In this document: positions 2 to 20,884 of the stretch, piece after piece
How positions within the stretch are numbered: position 1 is the first letter of the stretch
Layout of the letters: every line of letters starts with the position of its first letter
IMG/VR virus record: IMGVR_UViG_3300031669_003044
Span: 1 to 21,965 of that record
Length of the DNA stretch: 21,965 nt
Reading direction: 5' to 3' (one strand)
From: a virus
Program-made: the position numbers and the translations under genes
Notes under the pieces: generated by a model
Seen by the model: only the letters and a program-made list of their open reading frames with translations
Told to the model about the DNA's origin: nothing
Database searches by the model: none

Positions 2-112
2 AGAAAAAAGTTACCGAAATCTGTTGTGAGTAAGGCTGCTGCTCATGCAAAGAAGAGAATTAAGGAAGGTAAAAGCCCATTTTTTGACTCTCGAAAAGAT
101 AGGAAGAAATAA
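2..112 (+). CDS. C-terminal end of an upstream phage gene (5' truncated by window edge)
   Basis: An open frame runs from the window edge to a TAA at 110-112 and shows 36 residues. The visible tail is strongly basic (many Lys and Arg, ending in DRKK) and contains an alanine-rich helix-like stretch. Its stop overlaps the next start by one base (TAATG), the same junction type used throughout this cluster, which supports it being a real coding end in the same operon. By position, upstream of the scaffold and coat genes, it could be the tail of a portal, a portal-associated protein or another small basic protein. The visible part does not allow a choice. Confidence 0.55.
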   Translation, partial: RKKLPKSVVSKAAAHAKKRIKEGKSPFFDSRKDRKK

Positions 113-681
113 TGCCCTATAAGCCAGGAACACTTAAAAAAGCAGGAGAGGCTTTAGCTAAAGCTAACCCCAAGCTCCCAATATACAACCCAGATAAAAT
201 TAATGCTGGGGGTGCTTCGGCACTATCTCGATTAAGAAGATCAGAACCAGAAAATGTTGCTGAAGCAAATAGAGAACGTCGTTATAAAAGAAGATTTAAT
301 CAAGATAAAGCTTCTAGAGCGCGAGTGGATAAATTTCATAGGGAACATCAAAGAGATATTCCAGCTTCTAAAACTGTGCAGGTTACCGCAGAACCAGATC
401 CTAAACTTGAAAGATTCCAAAGAGCTAGAGATAGAGCGGAGAAGAGGCATAACGCATCGGTTAAACAATCAGCTAGACCCGAAAGCAATAGAACCCCCCA
501 ATACACAAGATATGCTAGAGGTCTTTCTCGTGCAGCCTCTAGAGTTGGTAAGGGTCTAAAAGGTTTAGGCGGTATTGGCCTCTTCAGTGAATTTAAAGAC
601 TTTCAATCACAAATGCGGAAGTCTAAAAAAACTAGAGAAGATTATAAAAAGAAGGGTCTACTACCCGGAGGTTCTACATAA
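112..681 (+). CDS. Small basic protein with the shared C-terminal tail (paralogue of the 220-aa protein at 7433)
   Basis: 189 residues, very rich in Arg and Lys, low in hydrophobics, with charged helix-like segments (for example SRLRRSEPENVAEANRERR near residues 38-57) and no membrane segment. I do not recognise a family. The last roughly 32 residues, beginning FSEFKDFQSQMRKSKK and ending GLLPGGST, match the end of the protein at 7433-8095 almost residue for residue, including an identical 24-base stretch at 594-617 and 8008-8031. The rest of the two proteins shows no obvious similarity, so the tail behaves as a transferable module. The gene starts at a TAATG junction and ends at another. Codons for the two glycines near the end form a GGAGG at 667-671 that serves as ribosome site for the next gene. 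A DNA-associated or virion-packaged role is plausible from charge and neighbours, but this is inference. Confidence 0.75.
   Translation: MPYKPGTLKKAGEALAKANPKLPIYNPDKINAGGASALSRLRRSEPENVAEANRERRYKRRFNQDKASRARVDKFHREHQRDIPASKTVQVTAEPDPKLERFQRARDRAEKRHNASVKQSARPESNRTPQYTRYARGLSRAASRVGKGLKGLGGIGLFSEFKDFQSQMRKSKKTREDYKKKGLLPGGST
594..617 (+). repeat. 24-nt direct repeat, copy 1 (in shared C-terminal module)
   Basis: The 24 bases from TAAAGAC through AAATGCG are identical to 8008-8031, more than 7 kb away. Both copies encode the KDFQSQMR segment in the same reading phase. Silent differences accumulate on either side, so this reads as a duplicated or recombined gene end rather than a regulatory repeat. 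Confidence 0.8.
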
Positions 682-1759: not shown

Positions 1760-2677
1760 ATGGATAATGAAACAGGCGCAGATATTTCAGCAAAACTAGA
1801 GCAAGCAATCGCTGGGGATGTTGAAACAGTAGAATCGCCATCTACTGAAACTGGAACAGAGACATACGAAACCACAAAAGAGGGTAAAAAGGGACCAAAT
1901 ACGGTACCTTATTCACGTTTTAAGGAAGTTAATGATTCTAAACGAGAACTTCAGGAACAGTACACTGAACTTGAAGCTTCTTTAAGAGATCAGACATCAT
2001 CCTTAACGAGACTTACCGAAATGCTGGACGAAACCAAAGAAGATGCGGACCTCGTTCGCGAGATTCGTGCATTAGCAAATGATCCCAAAATGCTACCCCA
2101 TATTCGGGCTCTTGATAACAAGATTAAAGGCATTGAAGAAGAAATTGAGGAAACAGGTGAAGTTAGTACTAAAACACTTGACAAAACCCGTCAATTCCTT
2201 GAAAGTAAACAGAGTGAACTTGCTGAAGAAATGGCTGACCAGCGACTAGAGATAATCACACAGAGAGCCGATGCGTTTGCTGTAAAGTGGTTAGATCAAC
2301 TGCCAGAAGAATACACGGAACAAGATAGAGAGATTATCGGAAAACTATGGGCCGATGCCGTAGATATGGACAATCTCGCACAAGACCCCAGTCAACTTCA
2401 TGAGGTCTTGAGAACAACGTTCCAAGAAACAATTGATTATTTTGGCGTACCTCGCGGTGGTTTAATAGATCCTGCTGATCCAGATAGTTACGAAGTTGAA
2501 ATCGAAGAAAAGCCTACCCTAACTCCTCAAGAGGAGCTACAACAAATCATTCAAGGCAAAAACTACGGTGGATTTAAGGAAGTCGAAGTTGGAGGTCGAA
2601 AGATTCTTCAATCTGAAATTTCTGATGATGAATTCGCCGCAGATATGGGCCGAGCAATGAAAGTTGGCAGGAAATAA
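1760..2677 (+). CDS. Capsid scaffolding protein (predicted)
   Basis: 305 residues from the ATG at 1760, which has a strong AGGGAGG 8 bases upstream (1745-1751). An in-frame GTG at 1685 would add 25 residues without a ribosome site, and it would overlap the leader structure, so it was not chosen. The product is very acidic, nearly cysteine-free and helix-rich. It has an N-terminal low-complexity Ser/Thr/Glu region, a PNTVPYSRFKEVND segment that I associate with phage scaffold-like proteins, then heptad-like coiled coil (SKRELQEQYTELEASL, and a Glu-rich KIKGIEEEIEE stretch). The C-terminus is short and basic (MGRAMKVGRK), as in scaffolds that contact coat protein with a positively charged tail. 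It lies immediately upstream of the coat gene, the usual place. Alternative: another acidic head-morphogenesis protein. Confidence 0.78.
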   Translation: MDNETGADISAKLEQAIAGDVETVESPSTETGTETYETTKEGKKGPNTVPYSRFKEVNDSKRELQEQYTELEASLRDQTSSLTRLTEMLDETKEDADLVREIRALANDPKMLPHIRALDNKIKGIEEEIEETGEVSTKTLDKTRQFLESKQSELAEEMADQRLEIITQRADAFAVKWLDQLPEEYTEQDREIIGKLWADAVDMDNLAQDPSQLHEVLRTTFQETIDYFGVPRGGLIDPADPDSYEVEIEEKPTLTPQEELQQIIQGKNYGGFKEVEVGGRKILQSEISDDEFAADMGRAMKVGRK

Positions 2678-2730: not shown

Positions 2731-3942
2731 ATGATTACCTTTGAAACTCTAGGTGATATGTTACTCCGTCGATATGTGGTTGATTATATTGCTCAAATGC
2801 AGCAACTCTCTGCGCCTATTTATACTAGACTTAGAGAAAATCCACGTTTCGTACCTACGGGTGACGGAGCTTATTTCCCAATCAGAATCGACGGAAATGA
2901 ATCAGGTGGTGGTTGGCGTGGAACAGACGACAACTCACTCCCTACAGCCGGTAACGAACGCATCAAGCAGGCTCGTGTACGTCCTAAGAAGTACTACCAC
3001 GTAGTAACCTTCTCTGGTCTTGCAGAAGCCGTATCCCGTAAGGGTGGTGAAGATGCTTTCGCTTCGGGCATTACCGACGCTATTTCACAATCTGTGAAAA
3101 GAGCTGGTGCAAACTTCGAAACCGTATTCCTTCGCGGAGACGGTACAGGACGTTTGACAAATGAATCAGGCGGTTCATCAGGTGACACAGTAGTTGGAGT
3201 TGACGATGCTCGTCCATTCCGTTCTGGTCAGGTTGTTGAATTCCTGAATAACACTACTGGTCTACGACAGGCTGGCCCTGTTACAGTGCTAGCTAGAGAC
3301 GTTGCTAACTCAACAATTACAGTATCAAGTGCTGTAACTGCTACAAGTGGTGATGGTATCTATATTGCTGGTGAACAGAGTGGTTCAAGCGCACCTCAGG
3401 AAGTAACAGCTCTTGGTCTTCCAGCCATCGTATCTGCTACAGGTACAATCTATAACCTAAGCCGTACAACATACCCTGTTCTACAGTCTAAGGTTATTCC
3501 GGCTGGATCTACAGCCCTTGATGAGTCTCTCCTAAGACGACTCCGCAAGCGGCTAATGGTTGAAACTGACACCGCAGCAATGGACGGCTTCGTAATGATT
3601 TCTAACTGGGATCAGTACGACCGTTACACTGAAATTGCTCTACCTTTCCGTCGTTTTAACGACATGAAGCTAGAACTTGGTGCTCAGCAAGAACTTACTA
3701 CATTCGAAGGTCGTCCTTGGTTAATCTCTTGGGCAGCCCTACCGGATCAAGTATACCAGATCAACCTGGGAGCAGTCGAAAGAGGCGTTGTACGTCCACT
3801 AAGTATTGACGAAAGAGTTAACATGGCTTGGGTACCAGGCACAGACTCATTCACAGTACTGTTGAAGTACTACGGCGAAAACGTTGCTCGTATGCTTAAC
3901 CAAACAGCAAAGATTACTGGTCTAACAGTACCTACTTACTAA
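2731..3942 (+). CDS. Major capsid protein (HK97-fold predicted, with beta insertion)
   Basis: 403 residues, preceded by GGAG at 2717-2720. The N-terminal part contains the pattern expected of a coat protein: an amphipathic helix (LLRRYVVDYIAQMQQL, residues 11-26), a Gly/Arg-rich loop, and a long helix region SGLAEAVSRKGGEDAF followed by ITDAISQSVKRAGANFETVFLRGDGTG. Residues about 150-215 form a Gly/Thr/Val-rich beta insertion (SGQVVEFLNNTTG, NSTITVSSAVTATSGDGIYI) like the insertion domains of several podoviral and siphoviral coats. The C-terminal part returns to the core (DGFVMISNWDQYDRY, a final beta-rich segment). Size, place directly after the scaffold, and a codon pattern richer in AAC, TTC and CGT than its neighbours all suit the most abundant virion protein. 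I cannot assign the coat lineage precisely. Confidence 0.85.
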   Translation: MITFETLGDMLLRRYVVDYIAQMQQLSAPIYTRLRENPRFVPTGDGAYFPIRIDGNESGGGWRGTDDNSLPTAGNERIKQARVRPKKYYHVVTFSGLAEAVSRKGGEDAFASGITDAISQSVKRAGANFETVFLRGDGTGRLTNESGGSSGDTVVGVDDARPFRSGQVVEFLNNTTGLRQAGPVTVLARDVANSTITVSSAVTATSGDGIYIAGEQSGSSAPQEVTALGLPAIVSATGTIYNLSRTTYPVLQSKVIPAGSTALDESLLRRLRKRLMVETDTAAMDGFVMISNWDQYDRYTEIALPFRRFNDMKLELGAQQELTTFEGRPWLISWAALPDQVYQINLGAVERGVVRPLSIDERVNMAWVPGTDSFTVLLKYYGENVARMLNQTAKITGLTVPTY

Positions 3943-6733: not shown

Positions 6734-7432
6734 ATGGCTGCACAATTAACGGGTACATTTTCGAATTTTCTTATTAGAGTACGACGCTATCTTAATGAAG
6801 ATACAGCTGAGAAAAGTCGTTGGAGTCAGGAGTTCTTAAAACACCTTTTTAACACCCAATATCGAGTTCGGTCTGCTGAGTTAGAAATGGCCCACGAAGG
6901 TTATTTTACAATTGTAGCAACACGCGATATTGTAGCAAATCAAAATAGATATGCTTGGCCCTCAAGTTTTCAACGACTTTTCAAAATGGAAATCGTTAGA
7001 GCTGACGGTCGGCGCGTTCCTATACAAAGAGAAGAAAGACACTTTGCCAGTCTTAACATCCCCAGTGCTGGGGGTGATGAATGGTTGCCCGACTACCGTC
7101 CGGTAGGTTCGGGTTTTATGTTAGAGCCTGCTTCAACTCAGAGTATTACAAACGGTCTACGTATTGAGTATACTGGTATTCCTGAAGAGTTAATTGATGA
7201 TGGGGACACCCTTCATTCGGATTTTCCTGCGATGCTAGATGAAATATTGGTACTTGATACGGTCGTTGTGGCAATGGACGCGGAAAGATATCTAGAATCT
7301 AGTCCTGGTCAAATGGATAGTGTACAACGACAGCGTATGGAGTGGCAAGTGAAGTGGGAACGTTTTATAGACGGTAGAATGGTATCCACTCAGAAAGTAA
7401 TCCCATTTATTCCTTCTTATTTGGATGCATAA
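6734..7432 (+). CDS. Head-to-tail adaptor protein (podoviral gp4/gp11-like, predicted)
   Basis: 232 residues with AAAAGGAG at 6719-6726. The N-terminal helices (FSNFLIRVRRYLNEDTAEKSRW and QEFLKHLFNTQYRVRSAE), the beta central part (GYFTIVATRDIVANQNRYAWPSSF, FKMEIVRADGRRVPI) and the C-terminal helix pair (LDEILVLDTVVVAMDAERYL and a Gln-rich helix) follow the plan of podoviral adaptor rings such as P22 gp4 or T7 gp11, which bind the portal and receive the nozzle. Length is in the expected range. The neighbourhood, adaptor then nozzle with one small gene between, agrees. Fold family inferred by pattern; the exact subfamily is not determined. Confidence 0.72.
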   Translation: MAAQLTGTFSNFLIRVRRYLNEDTAEKSRWSQEFLKHLFNTQYRVRSAELEMAHEGYFTIVATRDIVANQNRYAWPSSFQRLFKMEIVRADGRRVPIQREERHFASLNIPSAGGDEWLPDYRPVGSGFMLEPASTQSITNGLRIEYTGIPEELIDDGDTLHSDFPAMLDEILVLDTVVVAMDAERYLESSPGQMDSVQRQRMEWQVKWERFIDGRMVSTQKVIPFIPSYLDA

Positions 7433-8095
7433 ATGTCTTCGATTAAAGACCTAGAAGGTGTTTATAGTCCAACCCAAAAGGCACGTATCTCGCGTAAGCT
7501 ATCCCAGCGGGCTGCTGATCTTCTCGAAACTAGGGTTAAAACAACCCCCCTTAAGGGTGGAGTAGATGATTTTGATCGACAGTTATTAGGACGTTCACCA
7601 TTTAAATTTAAGGCTTCTAGAGGATCCCAGAGCGTAGAGGGGATCGGTGCGTATTCCAAGCCTCAAAATAATTTCAAAGGAAATATTGAAATTGAAGGGG
7701 TTGTAAGCACCCCACATGCAGAGGCCGCTCGCCGAAAGGGAGATTCCGGTGCATTCGAAGAAGTGCATAAAGTAGCTAAAAATAAGGCGATGGACCCGAA
7801 ATTTGTAAAAGAAGCAGCCGTCGCTCTTAGTAAACCCTATCCTAAAGCTGATATAGTACACGGGCATCGAGTTACCGGGATGAGATCTCGATCAAATCCA
7901 TTTCAAAGTATTGATTTAAAAAAAGCCAAAGCCGTTGCTGAACGGGCTGGGCGCATCGGGCGCCGGTCGGCCGGTAAATTAAGTGTGCTTGGAACTCTTG
8001 CGGATTATAAAGACTTTCAATCACAAATGCGCGCAGCAAAGAAAATTAGAGATGATTATAAAAATAAAGGACTACTCCCTGGAGGATCAACGTAA
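7433..8095 (+). CDS. Basic 220-aa protein with the shared C-terminal tail (paralogue of the gene at 112)
   Basis: 220 residues, strongly basic, starting at an ATG directly after the adaptor stop, with only a weak ribosome site (probable coupling). The N-terminal two thirds are Arg/Lys/Ser-rich and poorly hydrophobic (KARISRKLSQRAADLLETR; FKFKASRGSQS) with no recognised domain. The C-terminal region (about 170-220) carries RAGRIGRRSAGKLSVLGTLADYKDFQSQMR and then the DYKNKGLLPGGST ending seen in the 189-aa protein at 112-681. The final codons contain GGAGG (8081-8085), which is the only ribosome site for the nozzle gene 13 bases downstream. Its place between adaptor and nozzle suggests a virion protein, perhaps tail-lumen or ejected. 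Function unknown; the link between the two proteins is seen, the role is inference. Confidence 0.7.
   Translation: MSSIKDLEGVYSPTQKARISRKLSQRAADLLETRVKTTPLKGGVDDFDRQLLGRSPFKFKASRGSQSVEGIGAYSKPQNNFKGNIEIEGVVSTPHAEAARRKGDSGAFEEVHKVAKNKAMDPKFVKEAAVALSKPYPKADIVHGHRVTGMRSRSNPFQSIDLKKAKAVAERAGRIGRRSAGKLSVLGTLADYKDFQSQMRAAKKIRDDYKNKGLLPGGST
8008..8031 (+). repeat. 24-nt direct repeat, copy 2 (in shared C-terminal module)
   Basis: Identical to 594-617 and in the same coding phase (KDFQSQMR). It marks the best-conserved part of the transferable C-terminal module. No flanking mobile-element ends are visible. Confidence 0.8.
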
Positions 8096-8098
8096 TTA

Positions 8099-10582
8099 AT
8101 GGGCCTTCCCACATTACCATATATTGATCTTTTAAACTTTAAAGGTCTATTTACAAAGTCTAGTCCTGATATTCTTCAGGCTGAACAACTTCGTATTGCC
8201 GAAAATTGTGATCTCTTTGAAACTTATGGTGCCCTAACAAAAGTTAAGGGCAACACTCGAATATTATCTACACAGTACGCGGAAAATGGTGTAATTCAAA
8301 AAATTCCGTGGATTGATTTTTACAAAACTTCAGATCTCGATGGTCAGATCCTTCGTCATACTTTAGTCGCAGCAGGTACGATTCTTGGTAGAATCGACGG
8401 TAGTAGTATTACTACGCTGAAGACGGGTAGGACGGCGGATCTTTTTCATTCATCAGACCAGCACGAAAAATTCACATATATTACAAATCAAAATCCAGAT
8501 CTAGTAGGACAGGGGGATGATCTTGTAAAATACGACGGTGCGGTAATTACCAATTGGGGCCTTACAGCTCCGGGCGGCACTCAAACAGTTCGAGAATCCT
8601 TCAATACGTCTTCTACTTTTCAGACTAAACCAGCCAGTCAAATGACTGTTACGGATGATAGTACTATTACATGGGACGGTGCATCTACTAGAATTGATAA
8701 AGATGTAGCGGGTTCTAGATTATTCTATATTGAAAAGAAGTTAGACAACCAATTTTATGCAAGCTCCGACGCTAGACCCTCGCAGTATACTGCGGCTAAT
8801 AGAGTGAGCTTCTTCACATACATCCCAAGAGGACAATTAACGGCCGACAGCATCGACCCTAGTTCATTTAATACTGGAGAAGCTGCGATGGCTGTTTGGG
8901 TTAGCCCAGATGGTGACACCGTTGAAAATAACCACTGGAAGTTCTACTTCGCTATTGGTGAATTAGTTGAGGGGTGGAATAAACTAAACCTCGACTTCAG
9001 TGGGGCCCCTGTTGGTCCAAGGGGACACTTTTATCCTGAAGATCAAACTATTAAGAGGGTGCGTTGGGACTTCAGACTTAATGATGAGACTCACACGCGC
9101 ACGGGAATTCGTCTAGATAGATTCCATAGTTTGGACGAGGGTAACCCTATTGCAACCGTTTCTGGGGTTGGGACGCAAACAGGGGTTTATCAGTATGTTG
9201 TAACCTATGTTTCCAAGTATGGACAGGAATCTAACGCCGGTCCTGCCAGTGCTGCGGTTACAGCCGCCAGCCATGCACAAATTGATTTAACAAATATCCC
9301 CGTATCTGAGGATCTTCAGGTTACTGCGAGACAAATTTATAGAACTGTAGCCGGAGGTAGTTTATTCTTATTCTTAGATCGAATTGAAAACAACTCAGCG
9401 ACTACCTATACAGATATCATTCCTGACGGCAGTCTAGGAACGTCTACCCCACCACAGGTTGGGGATTTCTCTGATGATAACAGCCCCCCACCTAAAGTAG
9501 GAATTTTCAAGGTATGGAAGGATACTGGTTTCATGGCCGGAGATCCGCAGAACCCCAATTCTCTATATTATAGTGAAGTTAATGAACTAGAAAGCTGGCC
9601 TCTACTTAATGAGTTCCAACTAGATGATAAAATTACCGCGATTTATGAAACATATTCTACCTTAATTGTGGAAACAGAAACAGGAAAGTGGCAAGTTATG
9701 GGGGATAACCCCGATTTCGCTGTAGACAAGCTTGTTGATAATATGGGATGTGTAGGTCGGAGGGCCGCAGGAAAGAGTCGTATGGTTGGTTATGCGGTTG
9801 ACAAAGATGGGCTTCGTCTGTTTGATGGTAATAATACAGAAAAAATTAGTGAACCGATTAGAGATAAGTATGACGCATTACCAAAGAAAAATATTGATTT
9901 AATGCACACAACCCACAGTAAAAGAAGAAATGTTATCCTCCAGTTTAACCCAGATACTACATCGCCGATTCCTGAATATGATAGTATTTTTTCATATCAA
10001 TACTCTATTGATGATGTAACAAAAGGTTATTGGACTACATTAAATATTCCTTCAGATATAAATATTCTAGATACCGTTGAAATTGAAGACACGAATAGTG
10101 ATTTCCATCTATATGCTTCGGACGATTCTGGTATGGTTTATGAGTTCTTTACCGAAGGCCAACTTAACTGGACGGGTCCGACCGGATCTTCAACCCCTAT
10201 TAAAACTAAATTCCAGACCCCTTATCTACGTTTGGGTGGGCCCCTCGGTCAAGAAGGAGGTTTCTCGGGTCGAGTACAACCACGCTATATTGAAATACGT
10301 GTAGAAAATAATACAGCAATTAACTGGACGGTAACGGTTGAATCTGCTGAGGGCTCCTCGCAGGTTCAAGCTCTTGATTCTCAAGATGTGGTTATGACAT
10401 TTGGGACAAATAACTCACTTATCCGACAATCCCTTAAGCCTAATTTTCACCCTGGAGAGTTTGTAAGAATTACAGTTGAGAACAATGAAGCCGATGTAGA
10501 TTGTCGAATTACTGGCATTCGAATCGCTGCTCAACTTCACCCATTCCCAGGGCAGGTAATTAATGTTAAAAGTGTTACATAA
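8099..10582 (+). CDS. Tail nozzle / stabilisation protein (podoviral gp10/gp12-like beta-propeller, predicted)
   Basis: 827 residues. The opening (NFKGLFTKSSPDILQAEQLRIAENCDL followed by GALTKVKGNTRI) is the usual start of podoviral nozzle proteins, which list their virion contacts with a GxL-x-K-x-x-G signature. Residues about 345-455 form an FnIII-like insertion (GVYQYVVTYVSKYGQESNAGP, then RQIYRTVAGG). The propeller-like part follows: GDPQNPNSLYYSEVNELESWP, TAIYETYSTLIVETETGKW, GCVGRRAAGKSRMVGYAVDKDG with LRLFDGNNTEKIS. The C-terminus is beta-rich. Position directly after the adaptor and basic protein fits P22 gp10 or T7 gp12, which form the tube between adaptor and needle or fibres. Its stop overlaps the next start (TAATG), linking it with the fibre-like genes. 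Confidence 0.75.
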   Translation: MGLPTLPYIDLLNFKGLFTKSSPDILQAEQLRIAENCDLFETYGALTKVKGNTRILSTQYAENGVIQKIPWIDFYKTSDLDGQILRHTLVAAGTILGRIDGSSITTLKTGRTADLFHSSDQHEKFTYITNQNPDLVGQGDDLVKYDGAVITNWGLTAPGGTQTVRESFNTSSTFQTKPASQMTVTDDSTITWDGASTRIDKDVAGSRLFYIEKKLDNQFYASSDARPSQYTAANRVSFFTYIPRGQLTADSIDPSSFNTGEAAMAVWVSPDGDTVENNHWKFYFAIGELVEGWNKLNLDFSGAPVGPRGHFYPEDQTIKRVRWDFRLNDETHTRTGIRLDRFHSLDEGNPIATVSGVGTQTGVYQYVVTYVSKYGQESNAGPASAAVTAASHAQIDLTNIPVSEDLQVTARQIYRTVAGGSLFLFLDRIENNSATTYTDIIPDGSLGTSTPPQVGDFSDDNSPPPKVGIFKVWKDTGFMAGDPQNPNSLYYSEVNELESWPLLNEFQLDDKITAIYETYSTLIVETETGKWQVMGDNPDFAVDKLVDNMGCVGRRAAGKSRMVGYAVDKDGLRLFDGNNTEKISEPIRDKYDALPKKNIDLMHTTHSKRRNVILQFNPDTTSPIPEYDSIFSYQYSIDDVTKGYWTTLNIPSDINILDTVEIEDTNSDFHLYASDDSGMVYEFFTEGQLNWTGPTGSSTPIKTKFQTPYLRLGGPLGQEGGFSGRVQPRYIEIRVENNTAINWTVTVESAEGSSQVQALDSQDVVMTFGTNNSLIRQSLKPNFHPGEFVRITVENNEADVDCRITGIRIAAQLHPFPGQVINVKSVT

Positions 10583-14596: not shown

Positions 14597-15808
14597 ATGG
14601 CTATTTTTTCAAAAGCAAAAGAAAAACAGCGAGCACGTAATGAGGCTGCTCGCCAAGGGCTACTAAGTTACATGGCTGTTGAGTCGGTTGAGGCTGAAAA
14701 GTCTCGAACAATGGCAGCCGAACAAGCCCGCGGTAATGTATTTAACATGTTGGGAGCCCCTGGAACATATGATCTTCCAGGCACCGCTGGTAGTACAGGG
14801 ACACCGGGCACGTATGATGATGTTTATAAAACCGATGAACAACATTCGGCACAAGCCAAAGGATTATTACAGTATAAACTATCTGGAGGTGTGGGCAAAA
14901 AAGGCATAGGAAGCTCTGCGGCTCAAGATGAAATTGATGATGTGCGAAAAGGCATTCTAGATCCTAAGAAGTTTGCAGCTCAGGCATCTCAATCGGCCTC
15001 TTTCCGCATTCAGAGTAGACAAACTGCCGAATCTGAGCAATTGTTAGCTCAACAGGGCCCCGCTTGGGAAAAACTAAGCCAAAGTACTTTAGGTCAAATT
15101 CACGAAGGCGCAGCAACAGCGATGAAAGAAACAATGCGGGATCTTAAAAATAGATCTGCTAAGGGCGGGACAGCTAGGCGTGCCGCGATGTCAGAAGCTA
15201 CAGAAATTCGTGCTAAGCACGATGTTGCATTTCAGAGAGTGAATGAAACTTGGAATGCCAACCTTCAATTACATGATTATATTAGACAAAATGCTGAACG
15301 AGTGTCAATGGGGAATCAAAGATTCCTCGATGGGCTCCCAGGTATTAGAGATAATTATCAACAAACAATGAATAGTTTAGCTAATTCTATGACTGCGGCC
15401 ACACAGGCTGCTAGTTCTATGTCCCAAGCAGGATATCAGGCTCGGGCTGCCGTCGGAGATAGTAAGTTTGTAGAACAACTTATTATTGGTGCCGTTGGGG
15501 TAGTCGCAGGATACGCAACTGGAGGCGCTACAAACGCAATGTTCACTTCTGGTGGAGCATTTGGTAATATGGCTGGTAACTCTGCTGTTCCTGGTGCTGC
15601 CAGTTCTAGTGGTGGTTCTGGTTTCTTTAATGCTGGAGGAATAGGTGGACTGATGAGTGGTGCTGGTAATCTATTAAATGCTGGAAGAGAGTTCTTTACG
15701 CCCGGAACTGCGACAGAGGGGGGCGCAGCGGTCGTCGCCCCAGGAGTAACGCCGTCGGGATCACGACTTCCTAGTATGCCAAGCGGCGTAGTTGGAGGAA
15801 ACCTATAA
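14597..15808 (+). CDS. Internal virion / ejection protein 1 (predicted)
   Basis: 403 residues with AGGAG at 14587-14591. The N-terminal 45 residues are an Ala/Glu/Arg-rich helix, then comes a Gly/Pro/Thr linker with a repeated GTYD motif (APGTYDLPG and TPGTYDDVY, about residues 55-77), and long polar helices to about 285. From about 290 a hydrophobic, glycine-rich stretch (QLIIGAVGVVAGYATGG) could insert into a membrane, followed by a Gly/Ser/Ala-rich disordered end. There are no signal peptide or enzyme motifs. The combination of soluble helices plus a late glycine-zipper segment, in a row of three such genes after the fibres, matches podoviral ejection proteins (T7 gp14-like position). Assignment by architecture and order. 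Confidence 0.58.
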   Translation: MAIFSKAKEKQRARNEAARQGLLSYMAVESVEAEKSRTMAAEQARGNVFNMLGAPGTYDLPGTAGSTGTPGTYDDVYKTDEQHSAQAKGLLQYKLSGGVGKKGIGSSAAQDEIDDVRKGILDPKKFAAQASQSASFRIQSRQTAESEQLLAQQGPAWEKLSQSTLGQIHEGAATAMKETMRDLKNRSAKGGTARRAAMSEATEIRAKHDVAFQRVNETWNANLQLHDYIRQNAERVSMGNQRFLDGLPGIRDNYQQTMNSLANSMTAATQAASSMSQAGYQARAAVGDSKFVEQLIIGAVGVVAGYATGGATNAMFTSGGAFGNMAGNSAVPGAASSSGGSGFFNAGGIGGLMSGAGNLLNAGREFFTPGTATEGGAAVVAPGVTPSGSRLPSMPSGVVGGNL

Positions 15809-17274
15809 TGGCACAACCAAATCAAAAAATGCCAGTACAAACACCTCAACAACCGGCTAGAAATCCTGATGAGGTTTTACCTCCCGCTAACCCACAACAG
15901 CAACAGCAACAGCAACAGCCTCCGGGTGAGATGCAACGAACAATTAGCACGGGTCTTACAAATATGGGGTTTGCGTTCTTAGGTTCTGCGTTCGCGCAAG
16001 AATTTAATAACCCTGCTCTTGCTAAGCCATTTGAACAAATGGGTGCAAATATTACTAATACTCTTCACGATAGATGGTGGAAAGCAGAGTATGATAATTT
16101 TATTTCACAAAATGGAAGACCTTATCAAGATAAAATGATGGCAATTAGAACAAAAATGTCCGATACAATGAGTATGATTAATCGAGGGGTATATACTGAT
16201 GCCAACGGTGTAACACAAAATCTTGATTTAGATTCTCCTGCTGGGAAAGAAAGAGTAAGTTTATTAAGACAAGAAGCTTTTACTTCAAGTCTTTCGGGAA
16301 TTAGTAATCTTACAGACCAGTATGCTCAGTCTGCTGGTAAGTATGCAAACAACCCATATATTAATAAAGAAATTGAGGGTGTGGTAACAAGACAAAGTGA
16401 ATCAATTTCTCAACAATTTGGACCAACTATGGTTCAAGCAAATGAAGCATCTAGAGCCCAAACAAGACTCATGGACAGTCAGGCTCACAAAGAAGACAGA
16501 TTGCCAGCCGACAGAAGTAAAGGTTCCGAGACTGATAAGCTTAAGAATGCTACAATCGGTGACCTTATTCAGAATAAGGGAATAGATTGGACTGCCGATT
16601 ATCTACCTAATACCCCACAAGGTAGAGAAAAGATAGCAGCATTCATTGGTGGAGCTAGAGCAGAAGTTACACAACAAATTATTGAAACACAAAAAAAGCC
16701 AGACGGAACTCCATACAGTGAAACCAATGATGCAGAAGAATTAGGAAGAATGGTTGATACTCTGAATCCTAGAGTGATGAGAATTGCTACTGGTCGTGCC
16801 CTTAAACAAGTACGCCCCGATTTAGCTACTCCCTGGTCAGAGAACAACCCCACGTTCTTCCCTCATAAGGATATTGAAAAGGACTCTAGACCTCTTAATA
16901 GAAAAAACACCGAAATCAGACAGAAAGACTACGTGGCAAACGCCATTCAAGTTATGGATGATATCGTTTATAACGAAAATCCAACTTCGTTTGATGGAAC
17001 AGTTGATGCTGTTATGGCAGAAATCAACCGACAGCTTACAGAAGAGTTTGGCCTTTCTACCAGTACAGATATAACAAAGAAAAAGATTAGAACAGAAGTT
17101 ATAAATACAATTAATAATATGTCTAAGTTAAAGACGCTTAATCCAAATATTTATAACCACTTTAGTAAATCTGGTAAGGTGTCTACTGGACGCAGGGGCT
17201 CGCCGATGAGGGGGAGATCTGCGCGGCAGCGTGAGCGGTATAAGAAAGCAGGAATTTTAGTAGATGGCAGTTAG
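15808..17274 (+). CDS. Internal virion / ejection protein 2 with polyglutamine tract and C-terminal tag
   Basis: 488 residues. The start overlaps the previous stop (TAATG) with GGAGG at 15794-15798. A Pro/Gln-rich leader contains eight consecutive Gln (about residues 30-37) encoded by four CAACAG units. A helix with small hydrophobics (TISTGLTNMGFAFLGSAFAQEF) follows, then long Gln/Asn/Lys-rich helices typical of internal virion proteins. Tryptophans (DRWWKAEYDNF) lie near residue 90. The C-terminus becomes Arg/Gly/Ser-rich and ends RERYKKAGILVDGS, resembling the endings of the basic proteins at 112 and 7433. The last 11 bases overlap the large downstream gene. A role in the ejection complex is inferred from order and composition; no enzymatic domain is seen. 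Confidence 0.58.
   Translation: MAQPNQKMPVQTPQQPARNPDEVLPPANPQQQQQQQQPPGEMQRTISTGLTNMGFAFLGSAFAQEFNNPALAKPFEQMGANITNTLHDRWWKAEYDNFISQNGRPYQDKMMAIRTKMSDTMSMINRGVYTDANGVTQNLDLDSPAGKERVSLLRQEAFTSSLSGISNLTDQYAQSAGKYANNPYINKEIEGVVTRQSESISQQFGPTMVQANEASRAQTRLMDSQAHKEDRLPADRSKGSETDKLKNATIGDLIQNKGIDWTADYLPNTPQGREKIAAFIGGARAEVTQQIIETQKKPDGTPYSETNDAEELGRMVDTLNPRVMRIATGRALKQVRPDLATPWSENNPTFFPHKDIEKDSRPLNRKNTEIRQKDYVANAIQVMDDIVYNENPTSFDGTVDAVMAEINRQLTEEFGLSTSTDITKKKIRTEVINTINNMSKLKTLNPNIYNHFSKSGKVSTGRRGSPMRGRSARQRERYKKAGILVDGS
15895..15918 (+). repeat. (CAACAG)x4 hexanucleotide microsatellite
   Basis: Four perfect tandem copies of CAACAG encode eight glutamines. Because the unit is six bases, copy-number change would vary the tract length by two residues without a frameshift. 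Confidence 0.85.
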
Positions 17275-20200
17275 AAATAAAGCAAATTTACTCGATGAAG
17301 AAGAACTTATACACCCTCAGGGTGACGAGGCCCCTGCGTATGATACAAATCTTACTGGGCTAAAGAAGAGAACGTCCGACGCGAAAGATATTCGAGATCG
17401 TGGTGCTCGAAAAAGTAGAAACAATAATACAAATTTGCTTGAATCTCCTGACGCGCAGGATAGAATACTTACCCGTTCGCCCCAAGAAAAAAGAGAAAAA
17501 TATGATCTTATTCATAGAAAGAATAGAACCGATCTTCTAGAACCAACAAATCTTCCTAGAGAATTAAGTCTTGTTACTACGCCAAATGCTGGGCGAGAGG
17601 TTGATATAGAAGAAGATCAAGGTCTTGATGTTGATGTTATGGACTTTCTATTCGGTGGTGAAATGGCCGTTGTTGGACTCAAATACGATAACAGCGGTTT
17701 TCATCACGATTGGGAAAGCGCGAAGCAACAATGGAGTGAAGAACCTCTTTGGTTAAATCTTCTTAATACTACATCACTGGTCGGGGGGATGGCTTTTCCT
17801 CTAGGCCGAGCAGCCTGGGCGTTTAAGAATGTTGGCAGGGGAGCTAGTTTATTAAAGAGAACGGCAGGAATAACTAAAGCTGACGAAGTTGCTAGGTTTA
17901 AAAACTTAGGATTGTTACATGAGGCTGAAAAAATAGAGGATGTTGGAGAATCCGGGTTAAAAAGACTTAGAAACCTAGAAATTTCACAAAATAAAACTCA
18001 AGATTTAGCTGAAAAATTAAATAAGAATATGCTTGGCGAAACTGAAGATTTTACCCTAATGGATAAAGTTAAAATGCAGTTTGCAAGTCGATTCACTAAC
18101 AATTATTTTAAATTAACTTCAGAGGTTGCTGATGGTGGTGAAACTGCTACAAAAGCATTCCACAACAATCTTGATTCATTATTTAAAGCAGAGAATTTTG
18201 GGAAGTTTTTTTCGGAAGCTCCCGATGCTGCTGCTGGTAAAAAGATCTATGCTCACTGGGTGAATAAGATGCGCCCTGGGCTTATTAAGGGCGCCGCGTC
18301 GCTCACACCCTCAGAATTAAAATGGGCCGACGGCATGGAATTAGCCATGCGATCCCACCAAGCAGATGCTTTAAAGCACGGCCTCATTACCGACGATACA
18401 ATTAAGAAAGTCGGCGAACTCCACATTCCAGCATTGGACATAAAAACCCCCAGACCAGACGTGTCTGTAAGTCGGAAGTATGTCCCACTTGGGCACAAAG
18501 ACGGTGAAACGTTTTTGCGTGCATTTGATATGCCCAGACTTGATAGTAAATCATTAAAGCCTAGAGGGAAGGATCTCCCTGAGGTAGCACAACGATTAAT
18601 GAACGGGGAACTAATTACAGACCCAACAGAGTTAACAACTCGGGGTCTTATTATGGACCGTTTACTGTTAAATAATTATAAGACAGTACGAGATATTGCA
18701 ACCAATAGTGAATTCGCCGTTTCTGCTAGAGACGTTATGTTTAAATATGGAAGTATTCGGAAGGCCGAAGCCGCTGGATTTGTTAGCTTAGAAACATTAG
18801 AGCCTGGGATTGCTACAACTCTTAAGCGTATGATTAAAAAGAGTAAGCCCGATTGGCTAGATGATGCCGATGAGCTTCCTATGATTAAGAAATCCGTATT
18901 CGAAGATCTATTTGCTCCAGAAGGAATCTTCGGACAAACACAGATGGCCGCAAATGCGTTCGATGTTGCTACTGCGATTTTCAAGACTGCAAAGACGGCT
19001 TTATCACCCCCAACTCATCTTCAGAATCTCGCATCTAACTTTGTAATGCTAAGCCAGGCGGGATTCAATCCTCTTAAGCCTAGAAATATCCGACTTCAAA
19101 GTAAGATGGCTGGTGCCTTTGAAAAAATTGCGATTGGGGAAAAGCTTCGCAAAGAAGGTGGGGTTGGTAAAAAAGGAATTGAAAATCTTGGGATCAACCT
19201 TGGAAAAATTGATATAGATGGAAAAGTCTTTAATCTTAATGATGAGATTTTTGATCCTGAGGTATTAAAGCTTCTAGAAGAATCCGCTTTTGAGTCGGTA
19301 GAAGGTTTTTCTAATCTAAAGAATATGGTAGATAGTCTAAGACCAGAACAAAGAGCCACTAAAGCCCTTGGTGAAGGATTCCTTAAAGCTAAAAAAGCCC
19401 TTCAGCTTGGAGATAAAGAAGGCTTCCGTTGGTTCGACCAAATGACAAAAGCCTATCTTGCTGAAGATATGGTTCCTAAAATGTCCTATTACATGAGTCT
19501 CCGGGCAGAAGGGCTTACAAAGAAAGCCGCTATCCTTGAAGTAGGTAGACGACTTCCTATGTATCAAACAGTAGGATCCTCTATTAGACAGGGCCGAAAG
19601 TGGGCGTTTCCTTGGTTAACGTTCCCCACCGAAGCTGTAAGAATTACTAAAAATAATCTAATGGATCATCCTCTTAGAATGATGCCTTGGTTACAAATGC
19701 CCGATATTATTCAATCTGCTTTAACACTATCTGGACAAGCCCCAGGTGCAGACGACGTTGAAGAAACAAAGCGTCAGCTTCCTATGTGGGCCCAAAAAAG
19801 TGAAACAGTGGTTGCTGGAGAACACAGTGGAGCGATTGGCGGGGGTATAACTGGTGCTCTTGTTGGTGGAGTAGCCGGAGCCATTAAGGGTGGGGGAGCT
19901 GGTGGCGCCGCAATCGGAGCTGGTTTAGGTGCTGCTGCCGGTGCAGGATTTGGATTTGCAACAGAAACAGACGACGATAGACTACGAGGAACAGTATTAG
20001 ACTGGCTTCCTCATGCAGCCTTTATGCTAGGTTCTACAAGCCCTGAAATGGGTGGAGATATTCTTCCGTTCAAAGATATTGGTGGGGCACTAGAGCAGTC
20101 GCCCGCGGCCCCATTTGCTATCTTAAAGCCCTTAATTGAAATCATGGAAGGTAAAACTTCTTGGGGTACAGATATTGGTGTGGAAGATACCGGAGACTAT

Positions 20201-20884
20201 TTCTCTAAAGCCCTTGCTGGGTATATTGGATTCGTATCCCCTCCTATAATTCAGAAGTATGGATTTAAAACAACAACTCCTGATGTTTCAGCGTCTCTTG
20301 CTTTAACTGGAAAATCTGCCCCGGGAGATATTACAAATATTTCTAGATTACTCGTTGATTCGGGTATTGCAGTTGATCCAATTTCAGGTAAACCCGGAAA
20401 CCTTTCAACAGATCTTTTCTTAAAGAACTTTGGTATTTGGAAGTCTTGGGCTGCTGATCCGGCTCAACGTCTGGCTAATGAAGAAACAACCGAACGACAC
20501 TTCCAAAAAATAAGGTCAACAGTTTCTAAGAACCTTGCCTACCATCTTGAGAATGGAAATGACAAGGAATCTAAAAGACTATTGACCGTAGTGTTTTCTA
20601 CTTTTGCGAAACAACACACAGATAATCCGCGAGAAGCACAAGCAAAATACTCTAAGTGGGTTGAAAGTAAAATGAACTCTATTGGTAAACACCCCAGATT
20701 AAGGGGATGGTCGGAAGCAGAATTAAAGGCTCGACACGCAGAAGCATCCCGGTTTGCCGGGAAGGAACGTGGTCGTGCGCGAGAAGAGATGCTTGACTTC
20801 TTAGGTAAGCAAGTTGAACAACGACAAGTGACTAGAGCGCAAGCAGAACGAATGAAAGCCTCCCAGAAGAAGGATCTTCTCTAA
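17264..20884 (+). CDS. Large internal virion / ejection protein with glycine-zipper segment (predicted)
   Basis: 1206 residues, the largest gene here, overlapping the previous gene by 11 bases. The N-terminal 100 residues are disordered and carry three copies of an Arg/Asn-rich LL motif (RNKANLLDE 4-12, RNNNTNLLES 52-61, RKNRTDLLEP 85-94). The body is helical. Residues about 570-600 (ALSPPTHLQNLASNFVMLSQAG) and 770-800 (KWAFPWLTFPTEAVRITKNN) resemble segments of large phage-ejected proteins. A glycine-zipper of about 50 residues (851-901; GAIGGGITGALVGGVAGAI and a second Gly/Ala run) is a likely membrane-spanning, pore-forming region. The C-terminus is charged and helical (RAQAERMKASQKKDLL). 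No lysozyme or transglycosylase motif was recognised. Its stop interlocks with that of the convergent gene. Likely the T7 gp16-like position in an envelope conduit. Confidence 0.62.
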   Translation: MAVRNKANLLDEEELIHPQGDEAPAYDTNLTGLKKRTSDAKDIRDRGARKSRNNNTNLLESPDAQDRILTRSPQEKREKYDLIHRKNRTDLLEPTNLPRELSLVTTPNAGREVDIEEDQGLDVDVMDFLFGGEMAVVGLKYDNSGFHHDWESAKQQWSEEPLWLNLLNTTSLVGGMAFPLGRAAWAFKNVGRGASLLKRTAGITKADEVARFKNLGLLHEAEKIEDVGESGLKRLRNLEISQNKTQDLAEKLNKNMLGETEDFTLMDKVKMQFASRFTNNYFKLTSEVADGGETATKAFHNNLDSLFKAENFGKFFSEAPDAAAGKKIYAHWVNKMRPGLIKGAASLTPSELKWADGMELAMRSHQADALKHGLITDDTIKKVGELHIPALDIKTPRPDVSVSRKYVPLGHKDGETFLRAFDMPRLDSKSLKPRGKDLPEVAQRLMNGELITDPTELTTRGLIMDRLLLNNYKTVRDIATNSEFAVSARDVMFKYGSIRKAEAAGFVSLETLEPGIATTLKRMIKKSKPDWLDDADELPMIKKSVFEDLFAPEGIFGQTQMAANAFDVATAIFKTAKTALSPPTHLQNLASNFVMLSQAGFNPLKPRNIRLQSKMAGAFEKIAIGEKLRKEGGVGKKGIENLGINLGKIDIDGKVFNLNDEIFDPEVLKLLEESAFESVEGFSNLKNMVDSLRPEQRATKALGEGFLKAKKALQLGDKEGFRWFDQMTKAYLAEDMVPKMSYYMSLRAEGLTKKAAILEVGRRLPMYQTVGSSIRQGRKWAFPWLTFPTEAVRITKNNLMDHPLRMMPWLQMPDIIQSALTLSGQAPGADDVEETKRQLPMWAQKSETVVAGEHSGAIGGGITGALVGGVAGAIKGGGAGGAAIGAGLGAAAGAGFGFATETDDDRLRGTVLDWLPHAAFMLGSTSPEMGGDILPFKDIGGALEQSPAAPFAILKPLIEIMEGKTSWGTDIGVEDTGDYFSKALAGYIGFVSPPIIQKYGFKTTTPDVSASLALTGKSAPGDITNISRLLVDSGIAVDPISGKPGNLSTDLFLKNFGIWKSWAADPAQRLANEETTERHFQKIRSTVSKNLAYHLENGNDKESKRLLTVVFSTFAKQHTDNPREAQAKYSKWVESKMNSIGKHPRLRGWSEAELKARHAEASRFAGKERGRAREEMLDFLGKQVEQRQVTRAQAERMKASQKKDLL

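Follow-up and report, generated by a model that had tools for sequence, protein, structure and literature searches.

The 21,965-base stretch analysed here, which we call the window, is a fragment of an uncultured phage record. The view of it was extended upstream through contigs of the same phage (>99.9% identical), on which small basic proteins follow the 696-aa gene and lead into the window. The genes and features discussed below are collected in Table 1, in which ‘carrier’ designates a protein ending in the tail that is the subject of this article.

Table 1. Features of the window phage. Positions are those of the window, except for the three genes upstream of it, which are placed on contig L007.
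Feature	Position	Strand	Basis and remarks
P22-type portal	L007:1646-3862		PF16510, 1.2e-10; upstream of the window
Cyclic-phosphate receiver-like protein	L007:4239-4625		PF20274; between portal and 696-aa gene
Third carrier, 696-aa Pro/Ala/Lys-rich protein	L007:4629-6719		Two-tail profile; immediately 5' of the window
Carrier 1, 189-aa basic protein	112..681	+	ORF; pI 10.8, net charge +27
Carrier 1 C-terminal module, ARGLSRAASRVGKGLKGLGGIGLFSEFKDFQSQMRKSKKTREDYKKKGLLPGGST	514..678	+	BLASTP to carrier 2, 2e-16
24-base identical core TAAAGACTTTCAATCACAAATGCG, copies 1 and 2	594..617 and 8008..8031	+	
Probable scaffold gene	1760..2677	+	Position, directly 5' of the capsid gene
Major capsid protein	2731..3942	+	phrog_14242, 1.1e-18
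SU10-type adaptor	6734..7432	+	PF24175, 6.6e-11
Carrier 2, 220-aa basic protein	7433..8095	+	ORF; between adaptor and tail genes; pI 10.2, net charge +21
Carrier 2 C-terminal module, AKAVAERAGRIGRRSAGKLSVLGTLADYKDFQSQMRAAKKIRDDYKNKGLLPGGST	7925..8092	+	BLASTP to carrier 1
Tail/internal virion protein	8099..10582	+	phrog_511, 2.3e-28
403-aa protein, possible ejection trio member 1	14597..15808	+	Inferred from order and size
Probable carrier, 488-aa protein	15808..17274	+	Position like that of an internal/ejection protein
Last 24 residues of the 488-aa protein, SPMRGRSARQRERYKKAGILVDGS	17200..17271	+	Resembling SQMRKSKKTREDYKKKGLLPGGS
1206-aa protein, last of the possible ejection trio	17264..20884	+	Order and size; glycine-zipper-like segment

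The assignment of the phage to the podoviruses in the preliminary description is no more than plausible from the P22-type portal and the short-tail-like gene set. A search of INPHARED gave no relative of the capsid protein, and no cultured member was found. The 403-, 488- and 1206-aa proteins possibly form an ejection trio, a proposal based on order and size that profile searches did not confirm. PHROG and PDB searches with the 403-aa protein were without match, and the 1206-aa protein has a weak match to the SlyB glycine zipper (E 0.0099). Relatives keep the three genes in the same order. Among the remaining genes, the receiver-like protein (PF20274) recurs 3' of the portal clade-wide, where it is odd company for head genes, and similar-looking open reading frames (ORFs) are found at L018, L019, L020, L021, L061, L063, and L094.

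The common C-terminal tail

Both ORFs and the 24-base core that first drew attention to this locus are present and, in the case of the core, identical in its two copies. The 189-aa ORF has AGGAAG before its start, and its stop overlaps the next start (TAATG). BLASTP aligns residues 135-189 of the 189-aa protein with residues 165-220 of the 220-aa protein (30/56 identical [54%], 41/56 similar, E 2e-16), and both proteins finish with the identical end GLLPGGST. Outside the tail, BLASTP gives chance alignments only (E 2.2 or worse). Likewise, comparison with shuffles gives z=22 to 25 for the C-terminal 60 residues of the pair and z=1.2 to 1.8 for everything before them. The remainders thus have no detectable similarity, in line with the preliminary description, and full-length paralogy is not seen for this pair. 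By these comparisons, the common tail is almost certainly real and can be regarded as detachable; its length, previously put at about 30 residues, is about 55 by the BLASTP alignment.

The description of the two carriers as small, highly charged basic proteins of a virion module also holds (pI 10.2-10.8, encoded among portal, scaffold, and capsid genes), and all carriers examined, in this phage and in its relatives, are very basic (pI 9.8-11.4). Neither the 189-aa nor the 220-aa protein has a Pfam or PHROG match, and the 220-aa protein has no relative among PDB sequences and no significant relative among the annotated phages of INPHARED. Overall, PHROGs, Pfam, and PDB sequence searches of the carriers returned nothing usable, and enzyme or effector domains could be recognised in none of them.

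A profile made from the two tails finds a third carrier, the 696-aa protein (E 3.4e-9), which ends in the related stretch GIGTFFMWKAFQDEMRAAKARRDERRKKG followed by TITTTSGLI, and thus without GLLPGGST. Within this Pro/Ala/Lys-rich protein, an internal tandem repeat of ~27 residues around PTARQPDARAPARAQES differs between two contigs of the window phage (L005:3-2000 vs L007:4629-6719).

The 488-aa protein probably carries the last 24 residues of the tail. Its ending is the top non-carrier among 3396 ORF C-termini, with a score of 47 vs 26 for the next unrelated ORF. Against the 189-aa tail, 0/5000 shuffles reach its score (z=8), and against the 220-aa tail, 3/5000 do (z=5). We grade the protein as only a probable carrier because its HMM E-value is only 0.81. 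Homologues of the 488-aa protein in other phages end differently, without the tail.

Single-sequence AlphaFold2 models, which are of low confidence (mean pLDDT 55 and 72) and moderate for the helices only, place helices at residues 131-148, 155-170, and 175-181 of the 189-aa protein and at residues 162-179 and 187-211 of the 220-aa protein (the second with pLDDT of about 80), the last 9 residues of the latter being non-helical. The tail is therefore modelled as a helix, a break at a glycine-rich stretch, more helix, and a non-helical end. In the tails, a hydrophobic glycine-rich segment precedes the basic helix (GGIGLFSEF, GPIGAYLTF, GIYGAIKGAL). Comparison of the tail with the scaffold, capsid protein, and portal of the same phage revealed no resemblance in the four genomes tested and hence no direct pointer to a partner.

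Tails of related phages

A scan of viral contigs with a profile of three tails, akin to the profile search proposed in the preliminary description, recovered only the window phage itself. Relatives were therefore sought with the capsid protein and the portal as queries, and several dozen were gathered in this way. Six further phages (L018, L043, L049, L061, L094, and a 121-kb phage) have a tail of their own on two to five portal-proximal proteins; these relatives have a homologous major capsid protein and a P22-type portal. The C-terminal arrangement thus recurs in relatives, with different tails. Ends that are identical within one or another of the other phages are SPEERGT, KKEQERSARGI, and KKGLIES.

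In the interval between portal and capsid genes, C-terminal-only sharing is found at 6/31 loci (L017, i.e. the window phage, L018, L043, L049, L061, and L094), an approximate fraction given that a few loci are near-duplicate or partial. N-terminal-only sharing is found at 1/31 loci (L055), and L019 and L032 have repeated small genes that are alike at both ends. At the threshold used, 25/31 loci have no C-terminal-only pair in this interval.

In the 121-kb phage (L101 record, G004), five proteins of 124-169 aa are carriers; their genes lie around the terminase gene and before the portal gene, and all five proteins end in KKEQERSARGI. Three of the five also share an N-terminal KLPKGAQSLSDIAKMRGRGGQ-like segment, and ordinary gene duplication therefore contributes in this phage. 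A search of 26 other records did not turn up its tail, and a profile-profile comparison with the window tail gave a probability of 10%.

Scores between tails range from 73 to 222 within one phage and have a median of 25 between phages. The highest between-phage scores are those of L094 with a single L020 protein (141) and of the window 189-aa protein with a 635-aa protein of L018 (79). The 189-aa tail scores 76 against the 696-aa tail of its own phage; from its likeness to the L018 tail, together with the 696-aa end that is without GLLPGGST, it follows that homogeneity within a phage is not strict. These scores make it probable that the window-phage and L018 tails are homologous, although they differ today. 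The two phages are 87% identical in the capsid protein, 76% in the portal, 62% in the receiver-like protein, and 50% in the scaffold, and their 635-aa and 696-aa carriers align in an internal 30-residue stretch only.

Separate from the carrier tail, many small genes of the 83-121 kb relatives have in common a C-terminal end resembling a CxxC zinc ribbon (G004, L110-L116; G011, L117-L122; G012, L123-L128; G013, L139-L142), and another gene set of G004 ends in a LWNKELIRLFGFIPDFM-like sequence. Comparison of MSMTMATLGEQVMRKYP with MATTFTTLGDMLLRRYV gave z values of 9.9 and 7.1.

In its final 30 codons, the window pair has 23 identical residues, a pS of 0.58, a Ks of ~1.1, and a Ka/Ks of 0.11; all of these values come from 30 codons and are rough. 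Ka/Ks is 0.15 for the L094 tails and 0.09 to 0.22 for the five copies of the 121-kb phage (finite-Ks pairs only). The window tails are old at silent sites, which are near saturation, and their amino acids have been kept by purifying selection; a Ka/Ks of 0.11 with a Ks of ~1.1 means that the tails are kept alike through selection, not merely through fresh copying. Recent gene conversion was considered for the window pair and is ruled out by the same Ks. At L043:6916-8405, both carriers share 44 C-terminal codons with Ks=0, a very recent copy event, and recent gene conversion is possible for that pair.

A putative docking tag and its alternatives

The reading that we favour, with confidence somewhat short of even, is that the tail serves internal virion proteins as a C-terminal docking (encapsidation) tag, specific to each phage and read most plausibly by the scaffold; virion location, partner, and loading are what we infer. 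Basic, partly disordered head proteins that accompany the DNA would bear the tag, which would consist of a glycine-rich hydrophobic or amphipathic helix and, after it, a short end peptide of exact sequence (KxKGLLPGGST in the window phage). During procapsid assembly, the tag would bind one common partner, most plausibly the scaffold, and this binding would gather several unrelated proteins into the head. If the partner evolves fast, the carriers of each phage would keep one tag that differs from the tags of its relatives. We prefer the scaffold as the partner for two reasons: it diverges faster here than the capsid protein and the portal, and in P22, whose portal type (PF16510) the window phage shares, the assembly of ejection proteins may depend on the scaffold, the column of which has been proposed as their docking site (PMC12005531).

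A docking tag is favoured by the C-terminal-only sharing itself, which in the window phage involves three carriers and one probable carrier, and by the 488-aa family, which sits in an ejection-like cluster and whose homologues lack the tail ending. Further points for it are the purifying selection on the tails, the recurrence of the arrangement in relatives, the higher tail scores within than between phages, the basic character of all carriers, the identical ends within several phages, and the divergence from L018, which is far greater in the carriers than in the capsid protein. It also fits the loci of the carriers, which flank the terminase, portal, scaffold, and capsid genes, apart from one that follows the adaptor gene and a probable one in the ejection-like cluster. 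Against it stand the 25/31 loci without a pair, the Ks of 0 at L043, the N-terminal sharing in the 121-kb phage, the absence of likeness to head proteins, the carriers' want of a recognisable enzyme or effector domain, and the imperfect homogeneity of tails within the window phage. Moreover, an oligomerisation helix, or paralogy with drifting remainders, covers much of the same data.

Paralogy is somewhat unlikely in our estimation, and it is the first alternative to be weighed. The carriers would then have arisen by repeated duplication from a single small, basic protein, internal or DNA-binding, and the tail would be no address label: only the C-terminal helices would be constrained, by binding to DNA, membrane, or one another, and the disordered rest would drift past recognition. 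The carriers are indeed adjacent in L018, L043, L061, L094, and the 121-kb phage, and both the L043 tails without synonymous change and the N-terminal segment common to three carriers of the 121-kb phage are as duplication would have it. The window phage is harder to accommodate, however, as its carriers of 189, 220, and 696 aa are spread over >8 kb and are alike in the tail only, and its probable fourth carrier comes from a separate family whose homologues are without the tail ending.

Alternatively, the tail could be a shared oligomerisation module, its helix pairing with itself so that the carriers co-assemble into an internal core or ejection complex whose location in the head is due to one member. 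We consider this unlikely. Tails predicted as two helices are compatible with such a module, like tails on several members of a single complex are in keeping with self-recognition, which would also account for the likeness within a phage without an outside partner. Yet the best conserved residues include the end GLLPGGST, which the low-confidence models predict to be non-helical and which is more like a partner-bound peptide. Very improbable is a membrane-active segment, with the glycine-rich hydrophobic stretch entering the host envelope at ejection and the carriers serving as conduit components: such a stretch does precede the basic helix in the tails, and a glycine-zipper-like segment is present in the nearby 1206-aa protein, but the stretches are short and broken by charges, and insertion needs no phage-specific identical C-terminus.

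Extending the docking-tag reading from the window phage to its relatives, we tentatively suggest, as a possibility well short of even, that this uncultured clade uses a modular C-terminal encapsidation code. Two to five putative internal proteins per phage would be addressed by it, and co-evolution of the tail with its procapsid reader would be so rapid that the tails differ even between relatives whose capsid proteins are 87% identical.

Comparison with known systems

To our knowledge, how phages choose the proteins borne in their heads is understood in few cases only, with N-terminal signals in T4 and P1, and we know of no shared tail on the ejection proteins of P22. The cargo proteins of crAss001 were considered as a precedent, and the part of the source available to us describes no shared tail on them.

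The T4 capsid-targeting sequence (CTS) is a short conserved terminal module on the very diverse internal head proteins and Alt (PMC3012670), and the tail resembles it in being one terminal module on otherwise unrelated proteins, here putative head proteins. The CTS is N-terminal, 10-20 residues long, and removed by the prohead protease (PMC5694885), whereas the module described here, known from sequence, is C-terminal in every carrier and ~55 residues long. By position, therefore, the tail is not in the T4 CTS family, and we claim no membership in the other systems. In P1, an N-terminal segment of DarB is enough for a reporter to enter the capsid (PMC9024508); the signal of the Dar proteins is N-terminal, and no shared consensus has been found among them, whereas the carriers here have a C-terminal and shared one.

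Two C-terminal systems were likened to the tail by description. For the N4 virion RNA polymerase, encapsidation requires a C-terminal domain, according to unpublished data cited in PMC4496689 (ref. 78); it is a domain on one large podovirus protein, whereas here a short tail is found on several. Encapsulins load cargo into HK97-fold shells by means of short C-terminal peptides (PMC8346489). The likeness lies in a conserved peptide at the extreme C-terminus, identical in two window carriers (here putative cargo); the difference is that encapsulins are bacterial compartments, whereas the tail here has predicted helices and varies from phage to phage. A test for an encapsulin shell gene beside the carriers was negative: the adjoining shell gene matches a phage major head protein family and lies near portal and adaptor genes.

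A C-terminal cargo tag in a podovirus had been thought new. That view has to be narrowed in light of the N4 polymerase domain (PMC4496689) and the encapsulin peptides (PMC8346489), which are C-terminal.

Should the docking-tag reading be correct, such a C-terminal, shared, and fast-diverging tail would allow the head cargo of uncultured phages to be listed from sequence alone, via within-genome C-terminal sharing near the portal, and work on packaging proteins into laboratory phage shells would gain one more loading tag. As to the phages themselves, the only host hint is that relative L061 (contig JAJFLM010000335.1, 119,592 bases) was binned in a Deltaproteobacteria MAG, and the contigs of three other relatives, at 119.5-121 kb, suggest the size of the genome.
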